This document shows, in pieces, positions 11,321 to 26,166 of a stretch of DNA of 64,000 bases. The stretch is from the NCBI RefSeq assembly GCF_000397205.1, contig NC_021237.1, positions 5,959,001 to 6,023,000 of the forward strand. Reading direction: 5' to 3'. Made by a program: the position numbers and the translations under genes. Position 1 is the first letter of the stretch; every line of letters begins with the position of its first letter. The stretch is from Pseudomonas protegens CHA0 (GTDB lineage Bacteria; Pseudomonadota; Gammaproteobacteria; Pseudomonadales; Pseudomonadaceae). The notes under the pieces were generated by a model. It was given only the letters and a program-made list of their open reading frames with translations, had not been told where the DNA came from and did not search any database.

Positions 11321-11337
11321 AAAAAGGCCCGCAGGCC
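11321..11337 (-). terminator. Short terminator after hasS
   Basis: On the minus strand AGGCC-loop-GGCCT is followed by a run of five T, immediately after the hasS stop. The 5-bp stem is short. It would separate the low-level hasIS regulatory transcript from hasR, which then needs its own promoter in 11207-11320. Confidence 0.45.
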
Positions 11338-12351
11338 TCAGTAAATCAGGCTGACGCCGGCCAGGTCGAAACGCTGCACCTGCAATTCCTGGGTCAGGGT
11401 AACCAGGGCTGCATCGAGCATGTCCAGGCGGAAGACACCGCTGACCTGACGCTGGGCCAGGGCACTGTTGGTCAGCACCACCCGCCCGGGCCGATAGCGA
11501 TTGAGGCGCTCCACCACCAGGCCCAGGGGCTGGCGGTCGAACACCAGGACGCCGCGCCGCCAACTGGTAGCCCGCTGCAGGTCGAGCCCATCAAGCGCCA
11601 CCACCCCCGACTGCGGGTCATAGCGTACGCTCTGCCCCTCTTGCAGCACCCGCTCGGAGGCCCCACGTTGCGCCGGGGCATCCAGGCTCACCGCGACACT
11701 GTGCTGCAACACGCCGACCCAGGCCTGTTGAGCACTCTCGCGCCCGACCACGAAACGGGTGCCCAGGGCGCGGGTCTGGCCGCCGGCACTCTGCACGATA
11801 AAAGGTCGTTTTTCCTCGCCGGCCATGGGCGCCACGTCAAACACCGCGGAGCCGGCCAGCAATTGAACCTGGCGCTTGTCGCCGCTGTAGTCCAGGCGAA
11901 TGGCGCTGCCCGAATCCAGCTCCACCTGGCTGCCATCGGCCAGTTGTACGGTGCGCACCTCGCCCTTGCCGGTAAGGTAGTCAGCCTGCAGGTACAGCAG
12001 CGCCTGCGGCCCTTGCAGCCAGCCCAGGGCCACCGCCAGTACCAGCATCGCCACGCTGGCGGCCCGCACCAGCCGGCGTCGACGGCGCGGGCGCGGTATT
12101 GTCGCCGCAGGCCGCGCCGCCTGGCGCCGTGGTGGGGCAGTGGCCGCCAGTTCGGGGTCCAGGCGCAACTCGCCCAGGGCCTCCCAGGTCTGCCGGGCAA
12201 ACACCAGAGCCTGGGGATGACGCGGGTCGGCGGCCTGCCATTGGGCAAGCTGCGCCTGCTCGGTGGCGCTCAGGCCTCCCGCGTGCAAACGCACCGCCCA
12301 GTCGGCGGCGGCCTCGGTGATACTGCGCTCTTGCGGACCCTGGCTATTCAC
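11338..12351 (-). CDS. hasS: FecR-type anti-sigma factor HasS
   Basis: A 337-residue single-pass inner-membrane regulator. The N-terminal cytoplasmic part (AADWAVRLHAGGLSATEQ, about residues 14-60) binds the sigma factor; a basic stretch RRRRR precedes the membrane helix (about 100-120); then a periplasmic FecR domain (DGSQVELDSGSAIRLDYS) and a C-terminal STN-like end. It holds HasI inactive until HasR binds heme-loaded HasA. The start reads GTG at 12351, giving MNSQGPQERS; no better ATG is in frame. It is 63 nt after hasI. Confidence 0.9.
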   Translation of the reverse strand: MNSQGPQERSITEAAADWAVRLHAGGLSATEQAQLAQWQAADPRHPQALVFARQTWEALGELRLDPELAATAPPRRQAARPAATIPRPRRRRRLVRAASVAMLVLAVALGWLQGPQALLYLQADYLTGKGEVRTVQLADGSQVELDSGSAIRLDYSGDKRQVQLLAGSAVFDVAPMAGEEKRPFIVQSAGGQTRALGTRFVVGRESAQQAWVGVLQHSVAVSLDAPAQRGASERVLQEGQSVRYDPQSGVVALDGLDLQRATSWRRGVLVFDRQPLGLVVERLNRYRPGRVVLTNSALAQRQVSGVFRLDMLDAALVTLTQELQVQRFDLAGVSLIY

Positions 12352-12414
12352 GTGTGAATCTCGATTTCTCGTTATATATAAGCAGTGACGTCTGACCCCG
12401 ACTTTTACCGTAAC

Positions 12415-12954
12415 TCACTCGTCGACCGGCCGACCGTCGGTAGCCTGCAAACGCTGCATCACATAGGCCAGCGCCCGGGACAGGTGCTTTTGCACCGAGC
12501 TGTCGGAAATATTCAGGTGCCGGGCCACCTCGGCGTGGGTCATGCCTTCGATACGGTTGAGGCGAAAGATTTCCTGGGTCCGCGGGGGCAGTTCCATGAT
12601 CGCCTGTTTCAGTGCCTTGCGCTGTTGCTGCGCCATCGCCTGAGCCTCCAGCCCGGCCGCCTCATCCTCGATGTCGGCCAGCACTTCATGGGGCACGGTC
12701 TCGGTCTTGCGCCGCGCCTCCTGACGTACATGGTCGATCAGCAGATTGTTCGCCGTGCGGTAGAGATAGCCCTGGGAGTTGTCGATACGCTCGCCGCGCG
12801 TGTGCTCGGCCAGCCGCAGGAAACTCTCCTGCACCAGATCAGCGGCCAACTGCGGGTCCCGTATCTTGCGCGCCAGGTACCCACGCAAGGCAGCGGCATG
12901 CTTGAGAAACAGTCCCTTGAGATCCACGTCCGACAAACCGACTCCCTGGAACAT
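12415..12954 (-). CDS. hasI: ECF sigma factor HasI
   Basis: A 179-residue ECF sigma factor of the FecI type. Region 2 is LAADLVQESFLRLAEHTR (about residues 35-55); region 4 is LPPRTQEIFRLNRIEGMTHAEVA with the helix-turn-helix DSSVQKHLSRAL near the C-terminus. It should direct transcription of hasR and the genes after it. The frame extends upstream to 13014, but that would place the Fur box inside the gene. ATG 12954 has no good ribosome site; TTG at 12936 has CAGGGAG 5 nt upstream and may be the real start. Confidence 0.9.
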   Translation of the reverse strand: MFQGVGLSDVDLKGLFLKHAAALRGYLARKIRDPQLAADLVQESFLRLAEHTRGERIDNSQGYLYRTANNLLIDHVRQEARRKTETVPHEVLADIEDEAAGLEAQAMAQQQRKALKQAIMELPPRTQEIFRLNRIEGMTHAEVARHLNISDSSVQKHLSRALAYVMQRLQATDGRPVDE

Positions 12955-12986
12955 GAAGGAAATTGCCGGGCATCTTACGGCCAGTC

Positions 12987-13005
12987 GAGAATGATTTTCA
13001 ATTGA
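12987..13005 (-). promoter_or_regulatory. Fur box upstream of hasI
   Basis: On the + strand GAGAATGATTTTCAATTGA matches the Fur consensus GATAATGATAATCATTATC at most key positions (on the minus strand it reads as TTGAAAATCATTCTC). It lies 33 bp before the hasI ATG, which is where iron-bound Fur would block RNA polymerase. It makes the has locus iron-repressed, as in known has systems. Confidence 0.75.
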
Positions 13006-13054
13006 TATAAGCACTCATTGGCGGCAGCCTTGCACCTGCGAGCCCTACGCTGCC

Positions 13055-13069
13055 GTTCGATTACCGAAC
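13055..13069. promoter_or_regulatory. IclR/PcaR-type operator upstream of aroQ
   Basis: GTTCGATTACCGAAC, an almost perfect inverted repeat (GTTCG-N5-CGAAC), 127 bp before the catabolic aroQ start. The same word recurs at 17709 and 24132, and in degraded form at 25081. It resembles the PcaR operator of P. putida (recalled as GTTCGATAATCGCAC). Confidence 0.7.
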
Positions 13070-13195
13070 ACTTAATCCGCCCTCCCCCCGTTGTGCATCT
13101 ACCGCCAATTGACCAAATTAACCAGTTAGTACAATTTACCTTTCAACGCCTCGTACGCTCTCCCGAGGCCGACAATAACAACGGAGATTTACCCC

Positions 13196-13645
13196 ATGCG
13201 TCCTATCGTTCTGGTGCTCAACGGCCCGAACCTGAACCTGCTCGGCACCCGCGAGCCGGCCACTTACGGCCACGAAACCCTGGCTGACATTTCCGCCCTG
13301 TGCGGCCGCGCCGCCGAGGAGTTCGGCCTCGCTGTGGAGTTTCGCCAGACCAACCATGAAGGCGAGTTGCTCGACTGGATCCACGGGGCGCGTGGTCGCT
13401 GCGCCGGCATCCTGATCAACCCGGCCGCCTGGACCCACACCTCGGTGGCAATCCGTGACGCCCTGGTGGCCAGCGAGCTGCCGGTGATCGAAGTGCACCT
13501 GTCCAACGTCCACGCGCGCGAACCGTTTCGTCATCACTCCTTCGTTTCCGCCATCGCACAGGCGGTGATGTGCGGCTTTGGCAGCCATGGCTATCGCCTG
13601 GCGCTGGAACACTTCAGCCAGCGGTTCAAGGAGCAAGGCGCATGA
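13196..13645 (+). CDS. aroQ: Type II 3-dehydroquinate dehydratase, catabolic paralog
   Basis: A 149-residue type II dehydroquinase that interconverts 3-dehydroquinate and 3-dehydroshikimate. [17 protein letters not shown] opens the protein, with the catalytic tyrosine in ATYGHETL; the histidine site is [24 protein letters not shown] lies about 10 nt before the ATG. The next gene overlaps it (ATGA) and is a quinate/shikimate dehydrogenase, so this copy most likely serves quinate breakdown rather than aromatic amino acid synthesis. The operator at 13055 lies in its promoter region. Confidence 0.93.
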
Positions 13646-14496
13646 GCCGGCAAGCCAGCGTTCTGGCCGGGCTGATTGGCGCCGGCATCCAGGCCTCCCG
13701 CACCCCGGCCCTGCACGAACAAGAGGGCGATGCCCAGCATTTGCGCTACCTGTACCGCTTGATCGACCTGGATCAACTGGGCCTGGACAGCAGCGCCCTG
13801 CCTGAACTGTTGCGCGCCGCCGAGCAGATGAGCTTCACCGGCCTGAACATCACCTTTCCCTGCAAGCAGAGCATCCTGCCGCTACTCGACGAACTGTCCC
13901 CGGAAGCCCAGGGCATCGGTGCGGTGAACACCGTGGTGCTCAAGGATGGCAAACGAGTCGGCCACAATACCGACTGCCTGGGTTTTGCCGAGGGCTTTCG
14001 CCGCGGCCTGCAGGACGTGGCAAGGCGCCAGGTGGTGCAGATGGGCGCCGGCGGTGCCGGGGCCGCAGTGGCTCACGCCCTGCTGAGTGAAGGCGTGGAG
14101 CAACTGAACATTTTTGACGTGGAGCCGCAGCGGGCGCAAAGCCTGGCGGACAACCTCAACCAGCATTTCGGCAGCGCCCGGGCCCGGGCAGGCGGTGATC
14201 TATCGAGTGCCCTGCACAGCGCCGACGGGCTGGTGAACACCACGCCCATGGGCATGGCCAAGCTGCCGGGCATGCCGGTGCCGGTGGAACTGCTGCGAGC
14301 GCAGTTGTGGGTTGCCGAGATCGTCTACTTTCCCCTGGAAACCGAACTGCTGCGCAATGCCCGGGCCCTGGGTTGCAGGACCCTGGACGGCGGCACCATG
14401 GCGGTGTTCCAGGCGGTCAAGGCGTTCGAGCTGTTCAGCGGCCAACGCGCGGACCCGCAGCGCATGCTGGCGCACTTTCACAGCATGAACGGCTGA
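13642..14496 (+). CDS. Quinate/shikimate dehydrogenase (AroE paralog, QsuD type)
   Basis: A 284-residue member of the shikimate dehydrogenase family. The substrate-binding site contains NITFPCKQ with the catalytic lysine, and GHNTDCLGF with the catalytic aspartate. The Rossmann motif is [13 protein letters not shown], followed by [11 protein letters not shown]; an acidic residue after the second strand (FDV) suggests NAD rather than NADP. The PCKQ site and [10 protein letters not shown] resemble, from memory, the Corynebacterium quinate/shikimate dehydrogenase more than the biosynthetic AroE. It oxidises quinate to 3-dehydroquinate and shikimate to 3-dehydroshikimate. The start overlaps the aroQ stop. 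Confidence 0.88.
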
Positions 14497-14507
14497 GACA
14501 GGCTTCG

Positions 14508-14556
14508 GTAGCAGCTGCTGCCTTCAGGGCGCTGGCGAGCCTGCGGCAGCGGCTAC
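14508..14556. repeat. Short inverted repeat of a second REP-like type
   Basis: GTAGCAGCTGCTGCC (14508-14522) faces GGCAGCGGCTAC (14545-14556) in the gap between the dehydrogenase gene and the convergent small membrane gene. Its outer word GTAGC...GCTAC differs from the GTAGGAGC family. It may also act as a terminator hairpin. Confidence 0.5.
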
Positions 14557-14563
14557 AGCCTGC

Positions 14564-14788
14564 TTAGTCGGATTTGAGCTGCAGACGCGAGAGCAGGCCG
14601 ATCAGCAGCACATTGAAGAGAATCATCAGCAGGCTGCCGAGGATGCCCACCAGGCTGATCACCGACGACGGCAACCAGTCGAACATGCTGAACCCGGTGA
14701 GGGACAGCAGGCGCTCGCCGAACCAGAACGTGTCGACCACGATCATCAGGATCAGGATTATTTTCAGGGTTGGAACGGGGTTGCCCAT
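14564..14788 (-). CDS. Small two-helix membrane protein, unknown function
   Basis: A 74-residue protein with two hydrophobic helices (about residues 7-25 and 42-65) joined by the segment GERLLSLTGFSMFDWLPSS. It ends in a short charged tail (RLQLKSD). AAGGCA precedes the ATG at a suitable distance. It is convergent with the quinate dehydrogenase. I do not recognise a function; the regular topology and ribosome site support a real gene. Confidence 0.65.
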   Translation of the reverse strand: MGNPVPTLKIILILMIVVDTFWFGERLLSLTGFSMFDWLPSSVISLVGILGSLLMILFNVLLIGLLSRLQLKSD

Positions 14789-14853
14789 GGTGCCTTCCTT
14801 GTCGTGGTGCAGGTTGCAGAAGCCTTGGTGGCGATGGCGATCTTACGGGCGCT

Positions 14854-14891
14854 TTCGCTGGCAAGCCAGCGCCTGCCAAGCCAGCTCCTAC
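14854..14891. repeat. REP element with internal duplication
   Basis: TTCGCTGGCAAGCCAGCGCC is followed directly by TGCCAAGCCAGCTCCTAC. The core GCCAAGCCAGC / GGCAAGCCAGC is present twice in tandem within one REP, just downstream of the TetR gene. Confidence 0.7.
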
Positions 14892-14902
14892 AAAGAGTGG
14901 GA

Positions 14903-15580
14903 TCAGGCCTGCAGGTAGCGCAGCACCGACTCGCAGATCATCTCCCGGTGGCGTTGCTTGATGCCTTCATCCGGCAGGTCGATCTGGAAGATCTCGCCAA
15001 AGGTGTGGCGGTTCGAGACCCGGTAGAAACAGAACGAGCTGATCAGCAAATGCACATCCAGCGGATCCAGGCCGCCGCGGAACACGCCTTCGCGCGCGCC
15101 GCGCTCGAGGATCTCGCCCAGGGCATGGAGAATGGTGTTGTTCATGGCCTTGATCACGCCGGACTGCTTCACGTACTCGGCCTTGTGGATGTTCTCGATG
15201 CTGACGATGCGCACGAAATCGACGTTGCGGTCGTGGTGATCGAAGGTGAACTCCACCAGCCGGCGAATCGCTTCCTGCGGCGCCAGCTCTGCCAGGTGCA
15301 GGCGGCTCTCGGTGCTGCGGATATCGCCGTAGAGCTTCTCCAGCACCTCGACGTACAGCTGCTCCTTGCTGCCGAAGTAGTAATAGATCATGCGCTTGGA
15401 GGTATGGATGCGTTCGGCGATTGCATCCACTCGCGCGCCGGACAAGCCCTGCTGGACGAACTCGACAATGGCTTCTTGAAGGATGTTCTCGCGGGTCTTT
15501 TCAGGGTTGTTCTTGCGACTCTTGCGCGGTTCGAGAGCAGGCTCATCGGGCGCAATCGAGCGTTCACTGGTCATTGTCAT
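14903..15580 (-). CDS. TetR-family transcriptional regulator
   Basis: A 225-residue regulator with an N-terminal helix-turn-helix (about residues 24-65: TRENILQEAIVEF, then SKRMIYYYFGSKEQLY) and a ligand domain. The ATG at 15580 (MTMTSERS) is chosen; the frame continues upstream to 15631 without family-like sequence. It follows quiC1 in the same direction after a hairpin, so it may be co-transcribed at low level. Its position makes it a candidate regulator of the dehydroshikimate dehydratase or of the MFS transporter. The ligand is not known. Confidence 0.85.
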   Translation of the reverse strand: MTMTSERSIAPDEPALEPRKSRKNNPEKTRENILQEAIVEFVQQGLSGARVDAIAERIHTSKRMIYYYFGSKEQLYVEVLEKLYGDIRSTESRLHLAELAPQEAIRRLVEFTFDHHDRNVDFVRIVSIENIHKAEYVKQSGVIKAMNNTILHALGEILERGAREGVFRGGLDPLDVHLLISSFCFYRVSNRHTFGEIFQIDLPDEGIKQRHREMICESVLRYLQA

Positions 15581-15647
15581 TCTGGGCTCACGGCCATCAC
15601 TGCACACGCGGGCGATTATGGGCCGCGTCACCCTGCGAAAGAAAGCG

Positions 15648-15671
15648 CGACGGCGGCCGTTACCGCCGTCG
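15648..15671 (-). terminator. Hairpin after quiC1
   Basis: CGACGGCGG (15648-15656) pairs with CCGCCGTCG (15663-15671), loop CCGTTA, 11 nt after the quiC1 stop. On the minus strand it is followed by CGCTTTCTTTC, a partial U-tract. Likely a leaky terminator before the TetR gene. Confidence 0.55.
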
Positions 15672-15682
15672 TTAACAATCTT

Positions 15683-17593
15683 CTACAACTTGGCCTGGCG
15701 CACGGCACCGCTGCGTGATTTGGCCATGGCCGCCAGGCGCACCGCGACGTTGGCCGCACCGTAGCCGGCATAGCCGTTCTTGCGCTGGATGATCTCGAAG
15801 AAGAAGCGCCCTTCGAAGGGCTCGGTGTAGACGTGAAACAGCTCGCCGCCCTGGGCATCGCGGTCGTAGAGGACGTTGTAGTAGGCCAGTTCGCTGAGAA
15901 ATTCGTCGTCGAAATCAAAGCGTGCCGCCAGGTCGTCGTAGTAGTTGAGCGGGATGTCCAGCAGCGGCACACCAGCCTCCTTGGCCCGGCTGACTTCGGC
16001 AAAGATGTCGTCGCAATCGAAAGCGATGTGGTGCACCCCGGAACCGCGATAGCTGGACAAAGCATGGGAGATCGCAGTATTGCGATTTTCCGAGATGTTC
16101 AGCGGCAGGCGGATCGAGCTGCAACGGCTGCGCAGGGCGCGGCTTTTCACCAGGCCGTAGGGGTCGGGCAGCACCACTTCGTCGTCGGCCTCGAAGTCCA
16201 GCAGGCTCTTGTAGAACAGCACCCAGCTGTCCAGGCTGTCCGCCGGCAGGGCCATGGCCATGTGGTCGATGCGCTTGAGGCCGCCCTTGGCCACCACGCC
16301 GCTGTGCATATTGAAATCGGTGTCGTACAGGTGCTGGCCGCCCTGCTGCTGATCCACCAGGTAGATCAGGCTGCCATCGGGCTCGCGCACCGCCGCCAGC
16401 TCCAGCTCATTGGGGCCAACCAGGCCGCGATAGGGCTGGCCCTTGTAGGCCACCGCCCGCTCCAGGGCCTTGGCGCTGTCCTTGACCCGGATTGCCGTGG
16501 CACACACCGAAGGGCCGTGGGCCTCGAAGAAACTGTGGGCGAAGGAATAGGGCTCGGAGTTGAGGATCAGGTTGATATCCCCTTGGCGCATCAGGCTGAC
16601 GCTCTTGGAGCGATGCTGCCCGGCCCTGGCGAACCCCAGGCGCTCCAGCCAGCCGCCGAGCTTGGCGCCCAGGGCCTCGTCCACGGCGAACTCGAGAAAC
16701 TCGGTGCCGCCATAGGCCTGCACCGCAGGCGGCGCGAACAGGGTGTCGATGTTCGCCACCGGCTGGCCTTCCTGCAGCAGGCGCTCGCGGGTCTTCTCTT
16801 CCAGGTACAGCAGCGAGCGCAAGCCATCGGCTGCGTTGGCCCGCGGCGGCGCGGCGCGAAAGCCGTCGTTGAAGATCTCCAGGGACAGCGGCCCGGTGTA
16901 GCCGCTCTTGATGATCGGCGCCAGAAAACCCGGCAGGTCGAATTCGCCCTGGCCGGGGAAGCAGCGGAAATGCCGGCTCCACTCCAGCACATCCATGGCC
17001 AGGATCGGCGCATCGGCCATCTGCACGAAGAAGATCTTGTCCCCGGGAATCTCGGCAATCGCCGCCGGGTCGCCCTTGAGCGACAGGGTGTGGAAGCTGT
17101 CCAGCAACACCCCGAGGCTTGGGTGATCGGCGCTGCGCACGATGTCCCAGACCTGTTGATAAGTATTCACGTGACGGCCCCAGGCAAGGGCTTCGTAGCC
17201 GATGCGCAGGCCCCGAGCACCGGCCCGCTCGGCCAGCAGGTGCAGGTCGTCGATGAGGATCTGCCGGTCCCCCAGGCTGTCCGCCGAGGCGTTGCTGCAC
17301 ACCAGCACCAGGTCGGTGCCCAGCTCCTGCATCAGGTCGAACTTGCGCTCGGCGCGCTCCAGGTTGCGCGGCAGACGGTCGCGACGACAGCCCTCGAAAT
17401 CCCGGAATGGCTGGAACAGGGTGATGGCAATGCCCAGGTCGGCGCACATCTGCTTGATTTCCCGAGGGCTGCCGTCGTAGTAGAGCAGGTCGTTCTCGAA
17501 GATCTCCACGCCGTCGAACCCGGCGGCGGCGATGGCTTCGAGTTTTTCCGGCAGGGTACCGCTCAGGGACACGGTGGCAATGGAACGCTGCAT
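15683..17593 (-). CDS. quiC1: 3-Dehydroshikimate dehydratase fused to an HPPD-like domain (QuiC1)
   Basis: A 636-residue two-domain protein. Residues 1 to about 280 form a sugar-phosphate isomerase/AP-endonuclease-like TIM barrel (MQRSIATVSLSGTL, FDGVEIFENDLLY, LLDSFHTLS, FFVQMADAP), which dehydrates 3-dehydroshikimate to protocatechuate. The C-terminal half is a VOC/4-hydroxyphenylpyruvate-dioxygenase-like domain in which the three metal-ligand motifs are all present: RIDHMAMAL, GVHHIAFDC and FFFEIIQRKNGY. ATG 17593 has GGGAG 7 nt upstream; the extension to 17629 is rejected. Length agrees with P. putida QuiC1 (about 635). The role of the C-terminal domain is not established. Confidence 0.92.
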   Translation of the reverse strand: MQRSIATVSLSGTLPEKLEAIAAAGFDGVEIFENDLLYYDGSPREIKQMCADLGIAITLFQPFRDFEGCRRDRLPRNLERAERKFDLMQELGTDLVLVCSNASADSLGDRQILIDDLHLLAERAGARGLRIGYEALAWGRHVNTYQQVWDIVRSADHPSLGVLLDSFHTLSLKGDPAAIAEIPGDKIFFVQMADAPILAMDVLEWSRHFRCFPGQGEFDLPGFLAPIIKSGYTGPLSLEIFNDGFRAAPPRANAADGLRSLLYLEEKTRERLLQEGQPVANIDTLFAPPAVQAYGGTEFLEFAVDEALGAKLGGWLERLGFARAGQHRSKSVSLMRQGDINLILNSEPYSFAHSFFEAHGPSVCATAIRVKDSAKALERAVAYKGQPYRGLVGPNELELAAVREPDGSLIYLVDQQQGGQHLYDTDFNMHSGVVAKGGLKRIDHMAMALPADSLDSWVLFYKSLLDFEADDEVVLPDPYGLVKSRALRSRCSSIRLPLNISENRNTAISHALSSYRGSGVHHIAFDCDDIFAEVSRAKEAGVPLLDIPLNYYDDLAARFDFDDEFLSELAYYNVLYDRDAQGGELFHVYTEPFEGRFFFEIIQRKNGYAGYGAANVAVRLAAMAKSRSGAVRQAKL

Positions 17594-18130
17594 GATTCGA
17601 CTCCCGGGTAAGGACGGCCAGTCGGGCACAGGGGGACCGCGGCTTTTTATTGGATGTTGCGGATTATTCCACAGGCCTTGTTAAAGTGTACGAACCAGTT
17701 AGTTTTGTGTTCGATTATCGAACAAAATACAGATTGGCGAATTGACGATTTTTCAGCCACTGCGCACCATCGATAGCACGTTGAGCCGGCCCCAAACCCC
17801 CGGCTTCAATCACCCAGACCCAGAACACACCATAAAAATTTCAAAAATCGGGTACACCCTCATGCTTGCACTCAACGCCCTTCACTGCTGCACATCCCTT
17901 TGGCTGATACCGCCAACGGCCTCAACCGGCACCCTGGAATACGCCGCGCTACAGCCCTGAGCTGCAGCCGACCCGATGGCGCTCACCTGCCCGGCATCTG
18001 CCGCAGCGACGCGCCGCCCCAGCCGATCAACCCGCAGGTTCCCGGGCTGCCATGCCCCCGCCGACGGTTGGTCACGCGCCCTTGAGTTCCGACGAGCCCC
18101 GGCTCGCCAGTCACTGAACGGATGGCCCAC
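17594..18130. other. 537-bp gene-free divergent control region
   Basis: This lies between quiC1 (leftward) and the MFS gene (rightward). It holds the operator at 17709-17723 and a degenerate second copy near 17690 (on the minus strand GGTTCGTACAC), both close to quiC1. The MFS side, 17740-18130, has only short frames without ribosome sites. I see no convincing small gene; most of it would be a long leader for the transporter. Confidence 0.6.
17709..17723. promoter_or_regulatory. IclR/PcaR-type operator upstream of quiC1
   Basis: GTTCGATTATCGAAC, a perfect inverted repeat (arms GTTCGA/TCGAAC), 116 bp before quiC1; one flanking pair extends it to TGTTCGATTATCGAACA. It is the most symmetrical of the four copies in the window. 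Confidence 0.75.
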
Positions 18131-19465
18131 ATGACTCCTTCCCAAAGCTCTCGCATCGCCCCGAGCCTCAGCGTTGCCGGCGGCATCGGCGACAAGATCC
18201 GCGGCGCCATGGCGGTCGGCAAGACCCGCTGGGGCATGCTCGCCCTGGTGTTCTTCGCCACCACCCTGAACTACATAGATCGCGCCGCACTGGGCGTGAT
18301 GCAGCCGATCCTGGCCAAGGAAATGAACTGGACGGCGATGGACTACGCCAACATCAACTTCTGGTTCCAGGTCGGCTACGCCGTGGGCTTCGTGCTCCAG
18401 GGCCGCCTGATCGACCGGGTTGGGGTGAAGCGGGTGTTCTTCTTCGCCGTGCTGTTGTGGAGCCTGGCCACCGGCGCCCACGGCCTGGCCACTTCGGCGG
18501 CAGGCTTCATGGTCTGCCGGTTCATTCTCGGGCTCACCGAAGCCGCCAACTACCCGGCCTGCGTGAAGACCACGCGGCTGTGGTTCCCGGCCGGCGAACG
18601 GGCCGTGGCCACCGGGATCTTCAACGCCGGGACCAACGTCGGCGCAATGTTCACGCCCATGCTGCTGCCGCTGATCCTCCACGCCTGGGGCTGGCAGGCC
18701 GCGTTCCTGTGCATGGCCGCGCTGGGTGGCATCTGGCTGCTGTTCTGGGGCCTGAAGTACTTCAACCCTGAAGATCATCCAAGCGTCAAAGCCTCCGAGC
18801 TGGCCTACATCCAGCAACAGGTGGAGCCGGAAGAAACCCGCGTGCCCTTCAGCCGCATCCTGCGCATGCGCGGCACCTGGGCCTTCGCCCTGGCCTACGC
18901 GATGACAGCGCCGGTGTTCTGGTTCTACCTGTACTGGCTGCCGCCGTTCCTCAACCAGCAGTACAACCTGGGCATCAACGTGACCCAGATGGGCATCCCG
19001 CTGATCATCATCTACCTGACCGCCGACTTCGGCAGCGTCGGCGGCGGCATCCTCTCTTCGTTCCTGATCGGGCGCGGCATGAACCCGATCAAGGCGCGGC
19101 TGCTGTCGATGTTCCTGTTCGCCTGCTGCATCATCGGCGTGATCATGGCCGCCGGCACCGCCAACCTGTGGCTGGCCGTGTTCGCCATCTCCCTGGGGAT
19201 CGGCGCGCACCAGGCCTGGACCGCCAACATCTGGAGCCTGGTGATGGACTACACGCCCAAGCACATGATGAGCACAGTGTTCGGCTTCGGCGGCATGTGC
19301 GCGGCCATCGGCGGCATGTTCATGACCCAGATCGTCGGCCACATCCTGACCGTGACCAACAACAACTACACCCTGCTGTTCACCCTGATCCCGGCGATGT
19401 ACTTCATTGCCCTGACCTGGATGTACTTCATGGCCCCGCGCAAGATTCCCCGCGTAGAAGACTGA
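18131..19465 (+). CDS. MFS transporter (ACS family), probable quinate/shikimate importer
   Basis: A 444-residue protein with about twelve membrane helices. [19 protein letters not shown] after helix 1 is the usual signature of the anion:cation symporter family (hexuronate, phthalate, galactarate transporters). [13 protein letters not shown] is the A-like loop motif and [19 protein letters not shown] is typical of the ACS branch. ATG 18131 is chosen over 18122 because GGATGG sits 5 nt before it. It is divergent from quiC1 and ends in a strong terminator, so it is a single-gene unit on this side. The substrate is inferred from the neighbours. Confidence 0.87.
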
Positions 19466-19476
19466 TGCTCCTTTCA

Positions 19477-19507
19477 CGCAGGCCCACTCGGGGCCTGCGT
19501 TTTTTTA
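19477..19507 (+). terminator. Intrinsic terminator after the MFS gene
   Basis: CGCAGGCCC (19477-19485) pairs with GGGCCTGCG (19491-19499), followed by seven T. It starts 12 nt after the stop codon. A textbook Rho-independent terminator. Confidence 0.88.
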
Positions 19508-19556
19508 TCGGCTCGCCCTCCCCCCCTTTTGTTTTTCCAGACTCGGAGATCGTCCC

Positions 19557-21179
19557 ATGACGCTCGGTAACCTGAGCATCGCCCAACGCGCCGTGATCAG
19601 CTTCGGCGTGATTGCCCTGCTGGTCCTGCTGCAGGGGCTGTTCGCCCTCAAGCAAGTGGCCGAAGTCCGCGCCACCGGCCAACACACCGAAAACATTTCC
19701 CTGCCCAGCACCCGCTACCTGGGAGAAGTGCGCGACTACGTGTTGAGCATCCGCGTGCTGAGCCTGCGCATGGCCCTCAACCGTGAACCGCAAGTGCTGG
19801 AAAGCACCATTGCCCGCCTGCATCAGGTACAAGCCTGGCTCGACCAGGCCCTGGCCAGGTTCGCGCCGCTGGCGGGCGATCACAATCGGGTGCCATACGA
19901 AGCATTCCTCGCCACGGTCAAGAGCTACCAACAGGCACTGGCCCAGTACGAAGCCCTGTCCCGGGACAACCGCAGCAGCGAGATGACAGCGCTGCTCAAC
20001 GGCAAGATCCAGGATTACTCGACCCAGACCGGCGACCAGTTCACCGAGCTGATGAACCTGACTGCCGAGGAAGTCAGCCAGTCGGCGCAGCATGCCGACG
20101 CGCTTTACACCCAAGTAAAAATCACGGTGATCGGCGCCCTGATCGCCGTCGCCCTGCTGACCCTGTGCCTGGCCTGGCTGTTGATTCGCAGCATCGTCGT
20201 GCCCATCCGCCAGGCTGTGGACGTGGCCGAGCAAGTGGCCGCCGGCGATCTCGGCCGCCCCATCCACTGCGAGGGCAGCGATGAAACCGCGCGCCTGCTC
20301 AAGGCCCTGGCCAGGATGCAGGCCAGCCTGCGTGAAACCCTGCAACTGATCAGCAGCACCTCGACCCAACTGGCCGCCGCCGCGCAACAGATGAGCCAGA
20401 GTACCCATCAGGACTCCAGCCGGCTGCAGCAGCAACACAACGAAATCGAGCAAGCAGCCACGGCCGTCAACGAGATGACCGCGGCCGTCGAGGAAGTGGC
20501 ACGCAACGCAGTGTCCACCTCCGATACCACCCGCCAGTCCACCGCCCAGGCCACCCAGGGGCAAACCCGGGTGACCCAGACCCTGGACGCGATCCAGGCC
20601 ATGAGCAGCGATGTCGGCATCGCCCTGCAGCAAGTGCAGACCCTGGCCGAGCAGTCACGGGAAATCGGCAAGGTGCTGGACGTGATCCGCGCCATTGCCG
20701 AACAGACCAACCTGCTGGCCCTGAACGCCGCCATCGAGGCCGCGCGGGCTGGGGAAGCCGGCCGTGGTTTTGCCGTAGTGGCAGACGAAGTGCGGGCCCT
20801 GGCCCATCGCACCCAGCAGTCGACCCAGGAAATCGAACAGATGATCGGCCGGGTCCAGGGCGACACCGACAGCGTGGTGCAGTCCATGCACGGCAACAGT
20901 CAGCGGGTGGCCCAGACCCTGTCCATCGCCGAGCAGGCCGGGCTGGCCCTGGGGGAAATCACCCGGGCCATGGAACAGATCCACGAGCGCAACCTGGTGA
21001 TCGCCAGTGCCTCGGAAGAACAGGCCCAGGTGGCCCGTGAAGTGGACCGCAACCTGCTGAACATCCGCGACCTGTCCCTGGAAAGCGCCGACGCCGCCAC
21101 CCGCACCAACGCCACCAGCCAGGAGCTGTCGCACCTGGCGGCCGGCCTGCAGAACCTGGTGGTGCGCTTCCGCTTTTGA
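19557..21179 (+). CDS. Methyl-accepting chemotaxis protein with four-helix-bundle sensor
   Basis: A 540-residue chemoreceptor. Membrane helix 1 spans about residues 10-30; an all-helical periplasmic sensor of about 160 residues follows (four-helix-bundle type); helix 2 lies at about 188-210; then a HAMP linker ([18 protein letters not shown]) and a signalling domain with the hairpin tip [24 protein letters not shown]. The CGGAG ribosome site precedes the ATG. P. putida PcaY, a four-helix-bundle receptor for quinate, shikimate and protocatechuate, is the obvious comparison given the neighbours; ligand and name are therefore inference. Confidence 0.9.
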
Positions 21180-21185
21180 GCCGTC

Positions 21186-22064
21186 TCAGCGGCGGCGCTG
21201 CTGCCAGGCCGCCGCCAGCCCGCTGAGGCAGATCACGATGATGCCCACCTGGGTGATCAACGACGGCGCGTGGCCGAACAGCAACCAGCCCAGCAACCCG
21301 GCAAAGACAATCTGGCAATAACCGAAGGGCGCCAGCAGCGCCGGCGCCGCATGACGAAAGGCCTGGGTCAGGAACAGATGGGCACTCATGCCGCAGGCGC
21401 CCAGCGCCAGCATCAGCAAGCCATGGAGGAACCCGGGGGTCTGCCAGAAGAACGGCACCAGCGCCGTCATTACCAGGGTGTTGCACAACCCGGCAAAGAA
21501 GTTGCTGGTGGTGGGGCTGTCATGCTCGGCCAGCTTGCGTGTGAGCAGTTGATAGAAACAGAAGAACAGCGCCGAACAGAACGGCAGCAACACCGCCGGC
21601 GTGAACAGCTCGCCGCCCGGATGCACGATGATCAGCACCCCGACGAAACCGCAGATTACCGCCAGCCACTGGCCCCGGGTCACCTGCTCGCCAAGCAAAG
21701 GCACCGACAACGCGGTGACCAGTACCGGGGCGAGAAAGTTGACCGCCGTGGCCTCGGCCAGGGGGATGAACAGCAACGCCGAGGTGAACAGCAGACTGGT
21801 GCTCAACAGACACAGAGCCCGGGCCAGTTGCAGCAGTGGGCGCTTGCTGCGCAGCACACGCAGGCCCGATTGCGGCAGGAAGATCCCGGCCATCAGCAAG
21901 GTATGGATCAGGTAACGGGCCCAGACCACCATGATCACCGGGAAGAACCCCGACAGGTATTTGGACAGGGCATCGTGGCTGGCGAACAGAAAGGTCGCCA
22001 GGACGATCAGCAGAATGCCCTTGAAGGGGTGATTGATCCCGGAAAGTGGCGTGCTGCGGGTCAT
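21186..22064 (-). CDS. DMT-superfamily (EamA) transporter
   Basis: A 292-residue protein with ten hydrophobic helices in two EamA repeats (GILLIVLATFLFASHDALSKYL in the first half, YCQIVFAGLLGWLLFGHAP in the second). The ATG at 22064 is chosen since AAGGA is 6 nt before it; the ATG at 22070 touches the same site. Its 3' end comes within 7 bp of the convergent chemoreceptor gene. Being downstream of two catabolic-type enzymes on the same strand, it may export or import a small metabolite of that pathway. Substrate unknown. Confidence 0.8.
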   Translation of the reverse strand: MTRSTPLSGINHPFKGILLIVLATFLFASHDALSKYLSGFFPVIMVVWARYLIHTLLMAGIFLPQSGLRVLRSKRPLLQLARALCLLSTSLLFTSALLFIPLAEATAVNFLAPVLVTALSVPLLGEQVTRGQWLAVICGFVGVLIIVHPGGELFTPAVLLPFCSALFFCFYQLLTRKLAEHDSPTTSNFFAGLCNTLVMTALVPFFWQTPGFLHGLLMLALGACGMSAHLFLTQAFRHAAPALLAPFGYCQIVFAGLLGWLLFGHAPSLITQVGIIVICLSGLAAAWQQRRR

Positions 22065-22095
22065 GGGCATTCCTTGGGGTGATTGAAAACACAGC

Positions 22096-22149
22096 TTCGC
22101 GGTCCGCCAGCGCCTACCGGGTATTTGTAGGAGCCGGCTTGCCGGCGAA
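22096..22149. repeat. REP element pair
   Basis: A degenerate copy TTCGCGGTCCGCCAGCGCCT (22096-22117 with AC) faces GTAGGAGCCGGCTTGCCGGC (22127-22149 with GAA), 9 nt apart, between the isomerase-like gene and the DMT gene. Confidence 0.75.
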
Positions 22150-22164
22150 AGTCCTCCCGCCGAC

Positions 22165-22980
22165 TCAGATCCTGGCCAGCAGCGCGCGAGTTGCATCCAG
22201 CGCCATCTGCGCTCGCTGCAAAGCACTCACACCCTGCTCCAGCAACTGCACCGTGGGTATTTCCAGGCTCAGGGGCAGTTCTGGCGGCAGGCACTTGAGC
22301 AGCCCCGCCAGATCACAGTCGCCCTCCCCTGGAAAACGCCGCTCGTTGCGGGCCTGGCGCAGGATCTCCTGCATATCGTCCGGACAGGGCCCGGCGACAT
22401 CGCACAACTGTGCATAACGCAGGCGCGCCGGATCAACCTTGGCCAGGTCCTCCAGGCGCGATCCCGAGCGGTCGAAGTGAAAGGCGTCCACCAGCACGCA
22501 GCCGTTGCTGCGAGCGGCGTTCTCCACCACGCGCACGGCTTGCTCCAGGTTGCGCGCATCGGTCCAGGGCATGAACTCCAGATGGGGATGCAGTCCGTAC
22601 TGCTGCGCCAGATCGCACAAGGCGGCGAAGTTGTCGGTCATGCGCGCCTCATCGGGATCATTGCCCGCCACCAGCAACTCGCTGGCGGCAAACTCGGCGC
22701 CCACCGCCAGCACCGCCTCGAAGTCGCTGATCCGGGTCTGCGGCTTGAGCCGCAGGATCTCCACATCCAGCACCCGCACCCCGGTATCGCGCAGGCGATC
22801 CCGGGTTTGCCGACGCAAGCCGGTATCGGCCACCAGCGGAAAGTGATGTTCCTCCGGGGTTGCCGGCACCAGCCGCAGGCCCAAATGGCTGTAGCCGGCA
22901 CGGGCCGCCACTTCCACCATCTCTGGCGGAGACAGCTCCAGCACGGTCAGGCTGGCCAGGGAAAAAATCCGTTCACTCAT
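22165..22980 (-). CDS. Sugar phosphate isomerase/epimerase-like TIM-barrel enzyme
   Basis: A 271-residue protein of the AP-endonuclease-2-like superfamily that includes xylose isomerase, IolE/IolI and dehydroshikimate dehydratases. Seen: AGYSHLGLRLVPATPEEH, YGLHPHLEFMPWTDARN, VLVDAFHFDRSGS, RYAQLCDVAGPCP, RFPGEGDCDLAG and LPLSLEIP, which carry the usual Glu/Asp/His/Glu metal-site positions (HLEFMP, VDAFHF, DVAGP, SLEI). ATG 22980 is used; a TTG at 22995 would overlap the upstream gene by 8 bp. It is coupled to the Gfo/Idh/MocA gene. It could be a second dehydroshikimate dehydratase or an inosose-type dehydratase; the substrate is open. Confidence 0.78.
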   Translation of the reverse strand: MSERIFSLASLTVLELSPPEMVEVAARAGYSHLGLRLVPATPEEHHFPLVADTGLRRQTRDRLRDTGVRVLDVEILRLKPQTRISDFEAVLAVGAEFAASELLVAGNDPDEARMTDNFAALCDLAQQYGLHPHLEFMPWTDARNLEQAVRVVENAARSNGCVLVDAFHFDRSGSRLEDLAKVDPARLRYAQLCDVAGPCPDDMQEILRQARNERRFPGEGDCDLAGLLKCLPPELPLSLEIPTVQLLEQGVSALQRAQMALDATRALLARI

Positions 22981-22987
22981 CAGTTGT

Positions 22988-24040
22988 TCACTCAATGGGG
23001 GTTGGGGTGCAGGCGCGACCCGTGGCGGCGGCCTGGCGAATGGCTTCGATCAGGGCCAGGGTACGAGCGGCATCGGCGGCGCTGACCAGGGGCGCGACTT
23101 CGCCCCGGGCGACCTTGACGAAATGCTGCAGTTGCAAGCGCAGCGCCTCATCCGGCACGAAGCTTTCCTGCTGCATCAACAAGGGCTGGTGCCAACCGGC
23201 GCCCGCTTCGGCGTAGTGCCAGCGCTTGAGCTGAGGAATGCTCAAGGCTCCCTGAGTGCCGGCCAGCAGGTAGCAAGGCTGATCGGCCTGGCGCGGATAC
23301 ACCGGGTTCTCCCCGGAATCCAGCTCCCAGCTCCAGGGCGCCGCCACCGCATCGGAACCGGTGAGGCTGCCCAGGGCGCCGTTGTCGAACTGCAGCAGCA
23401 CCGCCGCACAATCCTCATTGGCGTAACCACGCACGGTGTTGCTGGTGATGGCCTGCACCTGTCGCACTTCTCCGCACAGGTGCCGCAACAGGTCGAGGTC
23501 GTGGATCAGGTTGGTCAGCAACATGCCGGCGCCGGGCTCACGACGCCAGGGCACATCGAAGTAACTCTCGGGCTTGTGCAACTGCCAGAGCGCAGTGACT
23601 GTGGTCAGCCGGCCCAGGGCGCCGCCGTGCACCAGTTCATGGGCCCGGGCGATCAACGGATTGTGTCGCCGATGATGCCCCACCAGCACCGGCACGCCGT
23701 TAGTGCGCGATGCCGCCACCAGCTCGCGCACTTCATCCAGGTGCACGCCCACGGGTTTTTCCAGCAGCACCGGGATACCCGCCGCCAGACAATTCAGGGC
23801 AGTGCTGACGTGAAGGTTATTGGGGTTGGCGACGATGACCGCATCCGGGCGCGCGTCCTTGAGCAAGGTCCGGTGATCGCTGAAATGCGGCACCTGCCAT
23901 TGCCCCGCGATGGCTTGCGCCTGGGGCCCGGGGTCGGCCACGGCGCACAGACTGGCCTCGGCCAGGGTCTTGAGGTGTTGATAGTGCTGCTGCCCCATAT
24001 TGCCGACGCCGATCAGGGCAATGCGCAGTGGCGGGTTCAA
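22988..24040 (-). CDS. Gfo/Idh/MocA-family NAD(P)-dependent oxidoreductase
   Basis: A 350-residue oxidoreductase. The N-terminal Rossmann domain has LIGVGNMGQQHYQHL; the family motif LLEKPVGVHLDEV lies at about residues 91-103; the C-terminal domain has GAGMLLTNLIHDLDLLRHLCG with the expected catalytic D-x-x-x-H-type region (NLIHDLD). The start is TTG at 24040, with AGAGGA 7 nt upstream and no in-frame ATG nearby. Family members oxidise polyols, inositols and sugar acids. An IclR/PcaR-type operator sits 92 bp upstream, linking it to the quinate genes; the substrate is not known. Confidence 0.83.
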   Translation of the reverse strand: MNPPLRIALIGVGNMGQQHYQHLKTLAEASLCAVADPGPQAQAIAGQWQVPHFSDHRTLLKDARPDAVIVANPNNLHVSTALNCLAAGIPVLLEKPVGVHLDEVRELVAASRTNGVPVLVGHHRRHNPLIARAHELVHGGALGRLTTVTALWQLHKPESYFDVPWRREPGAGMLLTNLIHDLDLLRHLCGEVRQVQAITSNTVRGYANEDCAAVLLQFDNGALGSLTGSDAVAAPWSWELDSGENPVYPRQADQPCYLLAGTQGALSIPQLKRWHYAEAGAGWHQPLLMQQESFVPDEALRLQLQHFVKVARGEVAPLVSAADAARTLALIEAIRQAAATGRACTPTPIE

Positions 24041-24131
24041 TGGCGAATCCTCTTGTGATTGTTATCGGGACGCTGATATTCAATTATTTAGAACTCAGTT
24101 CCAATTTCACACAAGAGCGATAAAAAATACT

Positions 24132-24146
24132 GTCCGATTACCGAAC
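24132..24146. promoter_or_regulatory. IclR/PcaR-type operator upstream of the Gfo/Idh/MocA gene
   Basis: GTCCGATTACCGAAC, one base from the aroQ copy, 92 bp ahead of the TTG start of the oxidoreductase on the minus strand. Confidence 0.65.
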
Positions 24147-24183
24147 GGCTTTGTAAGGATTCGCGGAAACCCTGCGCCTTCCT

Positions 24184-24228
24184 GCTCTGCCCGTAGCCGC
24201 CAGGGCAAGCAACGGCTACGGGCAGAGC
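24184..24228. terminator. Long perfect hairpin after iclR
   Basis: GCTCTGCCCGTAGCCG (24184-24199) pairs without mismatch with CGGCTACGGGCAGAGC (24213-24228), 13-nt loop, 9 nt after the iclR stop. There is no U-tract on either side. Position suggests transcript-end formation or message protection; the inner word GTAGCCG/CGGCTAC is also like the second REP type at 14508. Confidence 0.55.
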
Positions 24229-24236
24229 GCGTGGCG

Positions 24237-25013
24237 TCAGTTGAACAGTTCGGAAGCCTGGCTGGCGGCCGACAGCTCTTGGGCAAATTGCAGCAGCAAT
24301 GGCGCCAGTTCATGCAGCCGCGCCAGGGGCAGGCGCGCGCTGGGGCCGGCAACGCTGAGCACACCCACGACCCGGCCATCGATGGGATGGCGCACCACCG
24401 CGGCAATCGCCGAGGTGCCGACCGCCGAGCTTTCCTCGACCCAGGCGTAGCCCTGCTCGCGGGCCAGGCGCAGGCGCTCCAGCAACTCGATGTTCGAGCG
24501 CGGCGCATTGGGCCCCAGGTCCGCCGGGGTTTCCACGCGCTGGCGCTCCACCAGGGACAACGCCTCGGCGTCACTCAGAGTGGCCAGCCAGGCATGCCCG
24601 GAAGCGGTGTAGAACAGCGGCGCCTCGCGGCCCATGTCCGGGTCGTAACGCAGCCCGGAACGGGCGCCCTGGGACTTGGCAATCCAGGTCTGGCGCTCGC
24701 CTTCGATCACCCCCAGGCGTACCAGCTCGCCGGACTCCTGGGCCAGGCGATCGAGTACCGGCTGGACGATGTCCGCGCCGCTGGCAGACAGGTAGCGAAA
24801 GCCCATGGCCACCAGCCGGGTGGACAGCTGGTAGCGCAGGTTGTCCGGGTTCTGCCGCACATAGCCCAGGCGAATCAACTCCGCCAACAGGCGATGGGTT
24901 GCACTTTTGGGGATTTCCAGCTGTTCCGCCAGGGTCTGCAACGGCAGGCCGCGGGGATCACCGGTAAGACGTTCGAGAACGCTGAAGACGCGTTCGATTT
25001 GACTGCCAGCCAT
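24237..25013 (-). CDS. IclR-family transcriptional regulator
   Basis: A 258-residue regulator. An N-terminal winged helix (QIERVFSVLERLTGDPRG, LQTLAEQLEIPKSATHRLLAEL, about residues 4-60) is followed by the IclR effector domain (RYDPDMGREAPLFYTASGHAWLA, VGTSAIAAVVRHP). ATG 25013 follows a GGGAC stretch; the upstream open frame to 25130 is rejected as non-coding. It is the only IclR gene in the window and is surrounded by the GTTCGATTAYCGAAC sites, one of them (degraded) in its own promoter. It is therefore the best candidate to bind them and respond to a quinate, shikimate or protocatechuate-type ligand. PcaR itself may be encoded elsewhere. Confidence 0.87.
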   Translation of the reverse strand: MAGSQIERVFSVLERLTGDPRGLPLQTLAEQLEIPKSATHRLLAELIRLGYVRQNPDNLRYQLSTRLVAMGFRYLSASGADIVQPVLDRLAQESGELVRLGVIEGERQTWIAKSQGARSGLRYDPDMGREAPLFYTASGHAWLATLSDAEALSLVERQRVETPADLGPNAPRSNIELLERLRLAREQGYAWVEESSAVGTSAIAAVVRHPIDGRVVGVLSVAGPSARLPLARLHELAPLLLQFAQELSAASQASELFN

Positions 25014-25080
25014 GGTCGGGTCCCGACAAAATTTGGCCGATTCTAGTGACAACGGGCCGGTTGGGGAACTGCAGGGCGTG

Positions 25081-25095
25081 GTTCGATTACCGCCC
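25081..25095. promoter_or_regulatory. Degraded IclR/PcaR-type operator upstream of iclR
   Basis: GTTCGATTACCGCCC keeps 12 bases of the aroQ operator exactly and loses the last three. It lies 68 bp before iclR and 223 bp before the divergent aldo-keto reductase, so it may autoregulate iclR. Confidence 0.45.
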
Positions 25096-25317
25096 GGAAT
25101 CGACGAAAGCGGGCTTTTCACCCGACACAACGCCTTGTGCGCAGGTTAGCCGAGCTCGTATATTTTTTGGAATCACTTTCCATAAATACAACAACCACCA
25201 CAGGCCTCCACACTCGATTCGCCGGGCATTTTCTGTGCGGCTGCGCTGTCCAAACCAGCGACGCCCGACAGCCCTCGCCGACCCGGCCGTGTTCTTTTAT
25301 CCACAGGGAGATTGCCC

Positions 25318-26166
25318 ATGCCTCACTCCGTAGATTGCCCAGTCCTGACCCACAGTGGCCTGCACATGCCCAAGCTTGGCCTCGGCACTTGGCCGATGCT
25401 CGATGACGAGTGCACTCGCGCCGTGGAACAGGCCCTGGACCTGGGTTACCGACACATCGATACCGCCCAGGCCTACAACAACGAAGACGCCGTGGGCCAG
25501 GCCCTGACCAACACCCCGGTGCCCCGGGAGCAGATCCACCTCACCACCAAGGTCTGGTGGGACCAACTGCGCCCCGAGGCCATGCGCCATTCCCTGGAGC
25601 GCAGCCTGAAAGCCCTGCGCTGCGATTATGTGGATCTGTTTCATATCCACTGGCCCACCAGCGATTGGGAGCTGGAACGCAGCATCGAAACCCTGGTGTC
25701 GTTCAGGGAACAGGGACTGGTGAAGCACATTGGCGTGGCCAATTTCCCCCTGGCGCTGCTGCGCCGAGTGATTGAAGGGCTGGGCGCACCGCTGTCGGCG
25801 ATCCAGGTGGAATACCACGTGCTGCTGGGGCAAAGCGGCCTGCTGGACTATGCCCGCAGCCGCGACATGGTGCTGACCGCCTATACGCCGCTGGCACGCA
25901 ACAAGGTGTCCGAGGTGGCCGAGATCCGGCAGATCGCCGCCAAGCACGGCGTGCTGCCGACCCAGGTGGCGCTCAAGTGGTTGCTGGATCAGAACAACGT
26001 CGCGGCCATTCCCAAAGCCAGCAGTCGGGCCAACCAATTGGCCAACCTGGAGTCCCTCAAGCTGCAGTTGGACGATGAAGACCGGGCACTGATCGCCGGC
26101 CTGCCCAAGGATCAGCGTCAGGTCAGCCCGGACTTCGCTCCGGTCTGGGATCATTTCGATCATTGA
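25318..26166 (+). CDS. Aldo-keto reductase (2,5-diketogluconate reductase-like)
   Basis: A 282-residue NADPH-type aldo-keto reductase. LGLGTWPM opens the barrel; the catalytic tetrad is visible as Asp in HIDTAQAYNNE, Tyr in the same motif, Lys in LTTKVWWDQL and His in LFHIHWP. The C-terminal IPKASSRANQLANL is the cofactor-phosphate loop. The CAGGGAG site is 8 nt before ATG 25318. It resembles DkgB/AKR5 enzymes. It is divergent from iclR and convergent with pcaG. Its substrate in this setting may be a keto sugar acid or dehydroshikimate-like compound, which is inference. Confidence 0.85.
   Translation: MPHSVDCPVLTHSGLHMPKLGLGTWPMLDDECTRAVEQALDLGYRHIDTAQAYNNEDAVGQALTNTPVPREQIHLTTKVWWDQLRPEAMRHSLERSLKALRCDYVDLFHIHWPTSDWELERSIETLVSFREQGLVKHIGVANFPLALLRRVIEGLGAPLSAIQVEYHVLLGQSGLLDYARSRDMVLTAYTPLARNKVSEVAEIRQIAAKHGVLPTQVALKWLLDQNNVAAIPKASSRANQLANLESLKLQLDDEDRALIAGLPKDQRQVSPDFAPVWDHFDH

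Follow-up and report, generated by a model that had tools for sequence, protein, structure and literature searches.

Candidate PcaR boxes and a separate palindrome at the quinate island of Pseudomonas protegens CHA0: a probable two-tier hydroaromatic regulon

The window analysed here, a stretch of 64,000 nucleotides from the genome of Pseudomonas protegens CHA0 (6.87 Mb, single contig), contains an island with genes for quinate and shikimate use. Four of its promoters, those of aroQ, quiC1, gfo (an oxidoreductase gene of the Gfo/Idh/MocA type) and iclR (a regulator gene of the IclR family, whose product is hereafter called the local IclR), displayed a common 15-bp word, GTTCGATWAYCGAAC. The original prediction considered this word as one operator, pointed to the single IclR gene of the island and likened the word to the PcaR operator. 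Our results rather pointed to PcaR as its most likely reader at the quinate genes, and to another palindrome, TGGAAYNNNRTTCYA, as the most likely target of the local IclR.

The four sites and their genes

The shared sites and the genes of the island are listed below with their positions in the window.

13055 to 13069, + strand: candidate PcaR box of the aroQ promoter, GTTCGATTACCGAAC; relatives keep a box at -96 to -143
13196 to 13645, + strand: aroQ, type II 3-dehydroquinate dehydratase (TIGR01088, 194.6 bits, above cut-off)
13642 to 14496, + strand: aroE-like gene, shikimate/quinate dehydrogenase family (NF009201, 471.9 bits, above cut-off)
15683 to 17593, - strand: quiC1, 3-dehydroshikimate dehydratase (NF042435, 1298.7 bits, cut-off 1200)
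17709 to 17723, strand unassigned: candidate PcaR box of the region between quiC1 and the transporter gene that follows, GTTCGATTATCGAAC; kept in relatives
18122 to 19465, + strand: transporter gene of the major facilitator superfamily (MFS; PF07690)
21186 to 22079, - strand: eamA, EamA-type transporter gene (family name read from the open reading frame; synteny)
22165 to 22995, - strand: tim, xylose-isomerase-like TIM barrel (PF01261)
22988 to 24040, - strand: gfo, Gfo/Idh/MocA oxidoreductase (PF01408, PF02894)
24132 to 24146, - strand: candidate PcaR-type box of the gfo promoter, starting 43 bp before the palindrome
24237 to 25013, - strand: iclR (PF09339, PF01614; TIGR02431 109 bits, under the cut-off of 284.75)
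25081 to 25095, strand unassigned: candidate PcaR-type box of the iclR promoter, GTTCGATTACCGCCC; kept in most relatives

All four words were recovered at 13055, 17709, 24132 and 25081, where they had been reported. Their claimed location 65-130 bp upstream of start codons agreed with the measured gaps: 126 bp for aroQ (start at 13196), 115 bp for quiC1 (17593), 91 bp for gfo (TTG at 24040) and 67 bp for iclR (25013). Site 13055 also lies just upstream of a divergent fecI-like gene, and site 17709 upstream of the divergent MFS gene. With up to three mismatches, the window contained seven rows of the word, i.e. four distinct places (palindromic sites being scored on both strands, rows exceed places), against 0.88 rows expected; none of 100 shuffles of the window gave seven rows.

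A matrix derived from 10 distinct boxes of the pcaR, pcaK and pcaI promoters of 21 genomes, its background including true sites, ranked the four window sites at the top (27.2, 24.5, 19.2 and 18.3), the fifth place reaching 10.1. Since the reverse complement of 17709 is among the training boxes, the score of this site is not independent. The pcaI boxes of loci L280, L285 and L288 and the pcaK box of L291 were dropped from the matrix as weak, and the pcaI call of L291 (5 mismatches) never entered it.

A scan of the whole genome (at most two mismatches), proposed with the original prediction, gave 29 rows, or 22 places, against 13 control rows: the word is enriched genome-wide, yet not unique to the island. 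Ten of the 22 places occur in or beside promoters that would suit the use of aromatic or hydroaromatic compounds. Besides the four window sites, these places precede pcaR, pcaI and an OprD-like gene, or lie in the pcaR-pcaK gap, next to pobA and in an OprD/MFS intergenic region (names of neighbours were read from N-termini, only pcaR being identified by family search). The 15-mer ahead of the OprD-like porin gene, at a distance of about 210 bp (C1:1522087-1522101, L008), is identical to site 25081. Of the remaining 12 places, several fall within coding sequence, and at one of them, 631167 (C1:631167-631181, L009), GTTCGATTGTCGAAC lies between TolC-like and thiC-like genes.

Boxes of the quinate genes and PcaR

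The likeness to the PcaR operator, noted in the original prediction, was borne out by its published forms: the operator of P. putida PcaR is GTTCGATAATCGCAC (PMC12455658), and Table 1 of a study on the IclR family gives it as WWWRKTCGATWATCGSAYRRW (PMC8222616). Sites 13055 and 17709 matched the published operator, the latter being, on its opposite strand, one base off GTTCGATAATCGCAC. Conservation in orthologous promoters was then considered among 119 genomes; as relatives share ancestry, the genomes and loci counted here and below are not independent samples, and hypergeometric values calculated from such counts overstate the evidence. The box was present in 30/30 quiC1 loci (the best 30 among 98 genomes carrying quiC1, partial matches in G003, G076 and G080 included), where it was exactly GTTCGATAATCGCAC in 19 and a close variant in the other 11. 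It was likewise found in 30/30 aroQ loci (the best 30 aroE loci among 93 genomes), at -96 to -143, with all 8 arm bases in 26 of them and 7 in 4. The aroQ boxes drift more than those of quiC1 and often read GTGCGATCACCGAAC.

The same word (at most two mismatches) occurred in the pcaR promoter of 21/21 genomes and in those of pcaK and pcaI in 20/21 and 17/21; both genes were named by position and by reading of N-termini, and some pcaI boxes may be missed, as the stretches read for this gene were placed at a constant distance from pcaR. In these 21 genomes, the pca boxes vary chiefly at position 10 and at positions 13-14. The host genome has a PcaR orthologue (TIGR02431, 350 bits, cut-off 284.75), and PcaR was present in 112/119 genomes and in 97/98 of those with quiC1. 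The boxes were also kept in genomes without the local IclR (quiC1 7/7, aroQ 5/5). Taken together, these sequence data make the word at 13055 and 17709 most likely a binding site of PcaR, which regulates the beta-ketoadipate pathway and whose gene lies outside the island. Our survey of the literature, which was partial and left aside supplementary gene lists (PMC8222616, and PMC10949508, where the gene list of the P. putida 'PcaR' iModulon sits in a supplement), returned no report of PcaR boxes at aroQ or quiC1 of Pseudomonas. The quiC1 genome lacking a whole pcaR, G034, displayed the gene in three pieces (C1:2393337-2394078), which is either a real break or an assembly error, and its quiC1 box was intact.

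Both quinate promoters displayed a further conserved element.

13120 to 13137, + strand: second conserved element of the aroQ promoter, conserved in relatives; possible TetR-type operator
14903 to 15631, - strand: TetR-family regulator gene (PF00440, PF17938)
17693 to 17710, + strand: second conserved element beside the PcaR box of the quiC1/MFS region; possible TetR operator

Its core, ACCAGTTAGT / ACTAACYGG, is common to the aroQ and quiC1/MFS promoters and conserved in relatives; at quiC1 loci the element directly adjoins the PcaR box. A possible reader of this element is the TetR-type protein encoded at 14903-15631. A pattern derived from it was not enriched genome-wide (5 rows versus 8 control rows).

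Iron signalling genes of the FecA/FecR/FecI type (8501-13014, read from open reading frames) adjoin aroQ. The quinate MFS gene has a chemoreceptor gene (19557-21179) as its neighbour, an arrangement also seen in several relatives. This chemoreceptor was not retained as PcaY: its best match to 6s18 (PcaY) spans residues 190-539 only, and concerns the signalling part without extending to the sensor domain.

The local IclR, its candidate palindrome and the gfo promoter

Around gfo and iclR, the following features accompany the shared word.

24083 to 24110, - strand: promoter-like hexamers enclosing the palindrome (2 sites versus 1.7 expected in shuffles, a weak signal)
24089 to 24103, - strand: candidate local-IclR operator of the gfo promoter, TGGAACTGAGTTCTA; at least 10 of 12 positions in relatives
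25168 to 25182, - strand: candidate local-IclR operator in the gap between iclR and the divergent gene, TGGAAAGTGATTCCA; kept in relatives
25312 to 26166, + strand: aldo-keto reductase gene, divergent from iclR (PF00248)

The palindrome TGGAAYNNNRTTCYA was almost invariant across 18 aligned gfo promoters, where gfo starts with TTG or ATG, and matched at no fewer than 10 of 12 positions in 80/80 gfo promoters (the best 80 of 96 relatives, the gene closest to that of the window among named relatives being from Pseudomonas protegens 14B2, at 99%). It occurred in 71 of 76 iclR promoters: 67 displayed both words, 5 the PcaR-type box only and 4 the palindrome only. Where gfo and tim are absent, synteny showed that eamA stays with iclR, and in 7/7 regions devoid of gfo, iclR, eamA, the MFS gene and quiC1 form one gene run; the palindrome then precedes eamA in 5/6 and tim in the seventh (L197).

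Exact copies of TGGAAYNNNRTTCYA were found at three places of the genome (5 rows, 1 control row): the gfo promoter, upstream of a gene for a flavin adenine dinucleotide (FAD)-dependent desaturase, and 6431935, among response-regulator-like genes, which is probably a chance occurrence. The FAD gene (C1:2758080-2759798) lies 3.2 Mb from iclR, with the palindrome just upstream (C1:2758080-2759868; L298, L328, L337). Its copy in L190 scored 1007 bits with NF004789 (FAD-dependent oxidoreductase), above cut-off, and 526.5 bits with the ChcC2 model NF053677 (4-oxocyclohex-2-ene-1-carboxylate 5-dehydrogenase; cut-off 900), being related to that family and not a member. The gene was present in 37/119 genomes, all of them among the 53 with a local IclR, and in 28 of the 37 it is beside and divergent from iclR. 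TGGAAYNNNRTTCYA preceded 28/28 FAD genes adjoining iclR and 7/9 of those located elsewhere. The palindrome thus tracks the neighbour genes of the local IclR as well as its likely distant targets, the relocated FAD genes, and the fact that it follows the FAD gene to distant loci is the strongest evidence for a local-IclR operator.

A close gfo orthologue (identity of at least 74%) was found in 31 genomes, and 31/31 have the FAD desaturase. Seven others (G007, G009, G023, G051, G076, G080 and G086) displayed no close orthologue but a Gfo/Idh gene of 42-45% identity; six of the seven have the desaturase, and in G023 (L331) the FAD, TIM-barrel and Gfo/Idh genes lie together.

The two regulators differ in the recognition helix, which is IPRAAVRRCLHTL in PcaR and IPKSATHRLLAEL in the local IclR. 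Among the nine family members found by the TIGR02431 search, PcaR alone displayed the pattern RxxxRR; in PobR, residues Arg56, Arg60 and Arg61, at matching places, are reported to matter for function (PMC8222616). At the TIGR02431 cut-off, the local IclR does not belong to the PcaR/PcaU/PobR family. It most likely reads TGGAAYNNNRTTCYA rather than the shared word. Our survey of the literature, which was partial, returned no report of this IclR, of its palindrome or of the gfo-FAD gene set.

In gfo promoters, the PcaR-type box starts exactly 43 bp before TGGAAYNNNRTTCYA in 71/80 cases when any copy is counted, and in 58 when one best copy is taken per locus. Positions of the box are mostly conserved, and in many species the central bases diverge from the consensus known for PcaR. 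If the hexamers are real, the palindrome would stand at about -20 and the PcaR-type box at about -63, positions expected of a repressor and of an upstream activator. As for tim, its best structure match was Lmo2234, and its product aligned with residues 109-262 of QuiC1 at 28% identity (163 residues); it did not qualify as a clear second dehydroshikimate dehydratase.

The iclR promoter box at 25081 had been described as degraded. Mere decay was rejected, as most relatives retain a box there: in the 320 bp considered, 72/76 iclR promoters displayed one matching 7 or more of the 8 arm bases, and in 66 it stood at -75 to -99. In most aligned loci (L032-L061), though not in this genome, the PcaR-type box is followed by another conserved stretch, GGTTCCAGATTTCGC, ahead of the likely -10 of iclR.

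A two-tier reading and known systems

These observations are probably best accounted for by a two-tier hydroaromatic regulon, in which each promoter would answer to PcaR and to a local regulator. PcaR would bind ahead of aroQ-aroE and in the gap separating quiC1-tetR from the MFS gene, and conversion of quinate and shikimate into protocatechuate would thereby be limited to times when the downstream pathway is in use. A second element in each promoter would serve a pathway-specific regulator, the TetR-type protein at the quinate genes, and TGGAAYNNNRTTCYA would be the site of the local IclR in front of gfo-tim-eamA, of its own gene and of the FAD desaturase gene. In the gfo promoter, the local IclR would repress from the palindrome inside the promoter-like hexamers and be relieved by some substrate, and PcaR would activate from its box some four helical turns upstream. 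Sites, conservation, spacing, co-occurrence and the difference in helix pattern were seen by computation; the pairing of each protein with its word, the sign of regulation, the ligands and the part that gfo, tim and the desaturase would play in using hydroaromatic acids are what we infer.

Several observations weigh against this two-tier reading. The shared word also occurs near genes without visible aromatic link, such as that at 631167. The local IclR scored higher with the PcaR/PcaU/PobR model (109 bits) than with that of E. coli IclR (98.5 bits), both below cut-off, and among solved structures it matched PcaR best (8eju). No palindrome was seen at two FAD genes, those of G071 and G080; that of G071 adjoins another IclR-family gene, and the match in G080 begins at residue 109, placing the true promoter outside view. 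Four of the seven positive relocated loci (G012, G063, G064 and G078) share one arrangement and are not independent, and the upstream regions of the relocated FAD genes in G000, G061, G023 and G071 yielded no PcaR-type box. The 43-bp pair is missing in 9/80 gfo promoters. The gfo box is often GTGCGGTGTTCGCAC (17/71) or GTGCGCTGTTCGAAC (15/71), which score about 9 with the pca matrix versus 18-27 for the four window sites, and this in genomes whose PcaR is 96-98% identical. Finally, only 3 of 12 gfo-less iclR loci kept a recognisable iclR-promoter box (L041, L055 and L060; 30 aligned). Because of the drift at gfo and of these 3/12 iclR boxes, control of gfo and iclR by PcaR is considered likely in the P. 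protegens group and no more than possible elsewhere. The hydroaromatic regulon with unassigned genes announced by the original prediction was partly upheld, in that quinate genes are linked to such genes, while the inclusion of gfo and iclR in the PcaR regulon is only probable.

The same drift is what speaks for a different assignment, in our view unlikely, according to which PcaR acts at aroQ and quiC1 and the look-alike boxes of gfo and iclR serve another regulator, for instance the second dimer of a local IclR tetramer, kept in register by the fixed 43-bp spacing. Proteins of the IclR family do bind as dimers or tetramers (PMC8222616). While the centre and arms of the gfo box drift in many species, its GTNCG/CGNAC arms and the 43-bp spacing stay, the spacing being also kept before eamA in 5/6 loci devoid of gfo. 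Yet the gfo box of the P. protegens group is near the pca boxes (18.3 bits; GTTCGATAATCGGAC in four loci), aroQ boxes drift too and need no IclR, and a promoter could fix both sites, which would equally explain the constant spacing.

That one operator is read by one IclR, i.e. that the local IclR binds the shared word at all four promoters as the hydroaromatic regulator, appeared very improbable and was abandoned. In its favour, iclR is part of the above-mentioned gene run, which also comprises eamA, the MFS gene and quiC1, two copies of the word are present in its vicinity, arms of the form GTNCG-N5-6-CGNAC are common to several IclR-family regulators (PMC8222616), and the top score of the protein, though under cut-off, was with the PcaR/PcaU/PobR model. 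However, its recognition helix is devoid of RxxxRR and a different palindrome tracks its genes, distant loci included; the local IclR was rejected in this role since genomes devoid of it retain the boxes of aroQ and quiC1.

A further view, scarcely plausible, takes the palindrome at 24132 for an intrinsic terminator of the iclR transcript instead of an operator. This palindrome does lie downstream of iclR with a T-rich stretch after it, and a scan called it terminator-like (15 such sites found versus 9.1 expected in shuffles). Positions 3 and 13 are nevertheless able to pair in 37/71 loci only, all five stem positions in 32/71, and at least six T occur in the next 10 bases in 13/71 only; moreover, the distance from the iclR stop ranges from 12 to 972 bp (68 loci), whereas that to the palindrome is fixed at 43 bp. 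The terminator view was rejected on this poor pairing and fixed spacing. As to the four words being chance occurrences, or relics of one duplication, the places without visible link to aromatics lend it next to no credit against the shuffles, the gap between the four top matrix scores and the fifth, and the conservation of site positions in relatives.

The two-tier reading provides a concrete list of candidate new PcaR targets in Pseudomonas, namely in quinate catabolism, and sets them apart from a probable small regulon of the local IclR, in which the desaturase and Gfo/Idh genes are found in the same genomes. This co-occurrence (31/31) suggests that ring acids derived from plants are degraded by a route as yet unassigned. 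One tentative version, which we regard as possible though rather doubtful, is that gfo-tim-eamA and the FAD desaturase form an undescribed route by which pseudomonads oxidise and aromatise an alicyclic, quinate-like plant acid into the protocatechuate pathway, with the local IclR sensing its substrate via TGGAAYNNNRTTCYA and PcaR gating the route from a box placed exactly four helical turns upstream. If so, two IclR-family proteins of different DNA specificity would act on one promoter. More generally, a regulator gene located in an island need not read the word common to that island.

A co-regulated quinate/shikimate set was reported in IclR-family regulogs by Suvorova and Gelfand in 2021 (PMC8222616), so that the PcaR-quiC1 link may be anticipated there; the pair is not named in the text available from that study, which places species and genes in supplements. 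Compared with the PcaR regulon of P. putida, the island displayed the same 15-bp operator and a PcaR orthologue, and the word occurred here at pcaR, pcaK and pcaI. It differs in that the box also fronts the quinate genes and, in a weaker form, gfo and iclR. Escherichia coli IclR, the operator of which is TGGAAATNATTTCCA (PMC8222616), offers another comparison: TGGAAYNNNRTTCYA has nearly the same arms and length, whereas the target genes are others and the local IclR reached 98.5 of 380 bits, below the curated cut-off. A close parallel for the quinate genes is found in Acinetobacter baylyi, where PcaU, also a pca regulator of the IclR family, has a nearly identical operator (PMC8222616) and where quinate genes belong to the pca operonic region (PMC4213383). 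Quinate genes under a pca regulator are established in Acinetobacter with PcaU and the pcaI-quiA region, and the authors suggested that PcaU may act at the sites of other IclR proteins (PMC4213383). PcaU thus constitutes a precedent for control of quinate genes by a pca regulator; unlike the Acinetobacter pcaI-quiA operon, the genes described here have separate promoters, each displaying the box together with a second, local element.

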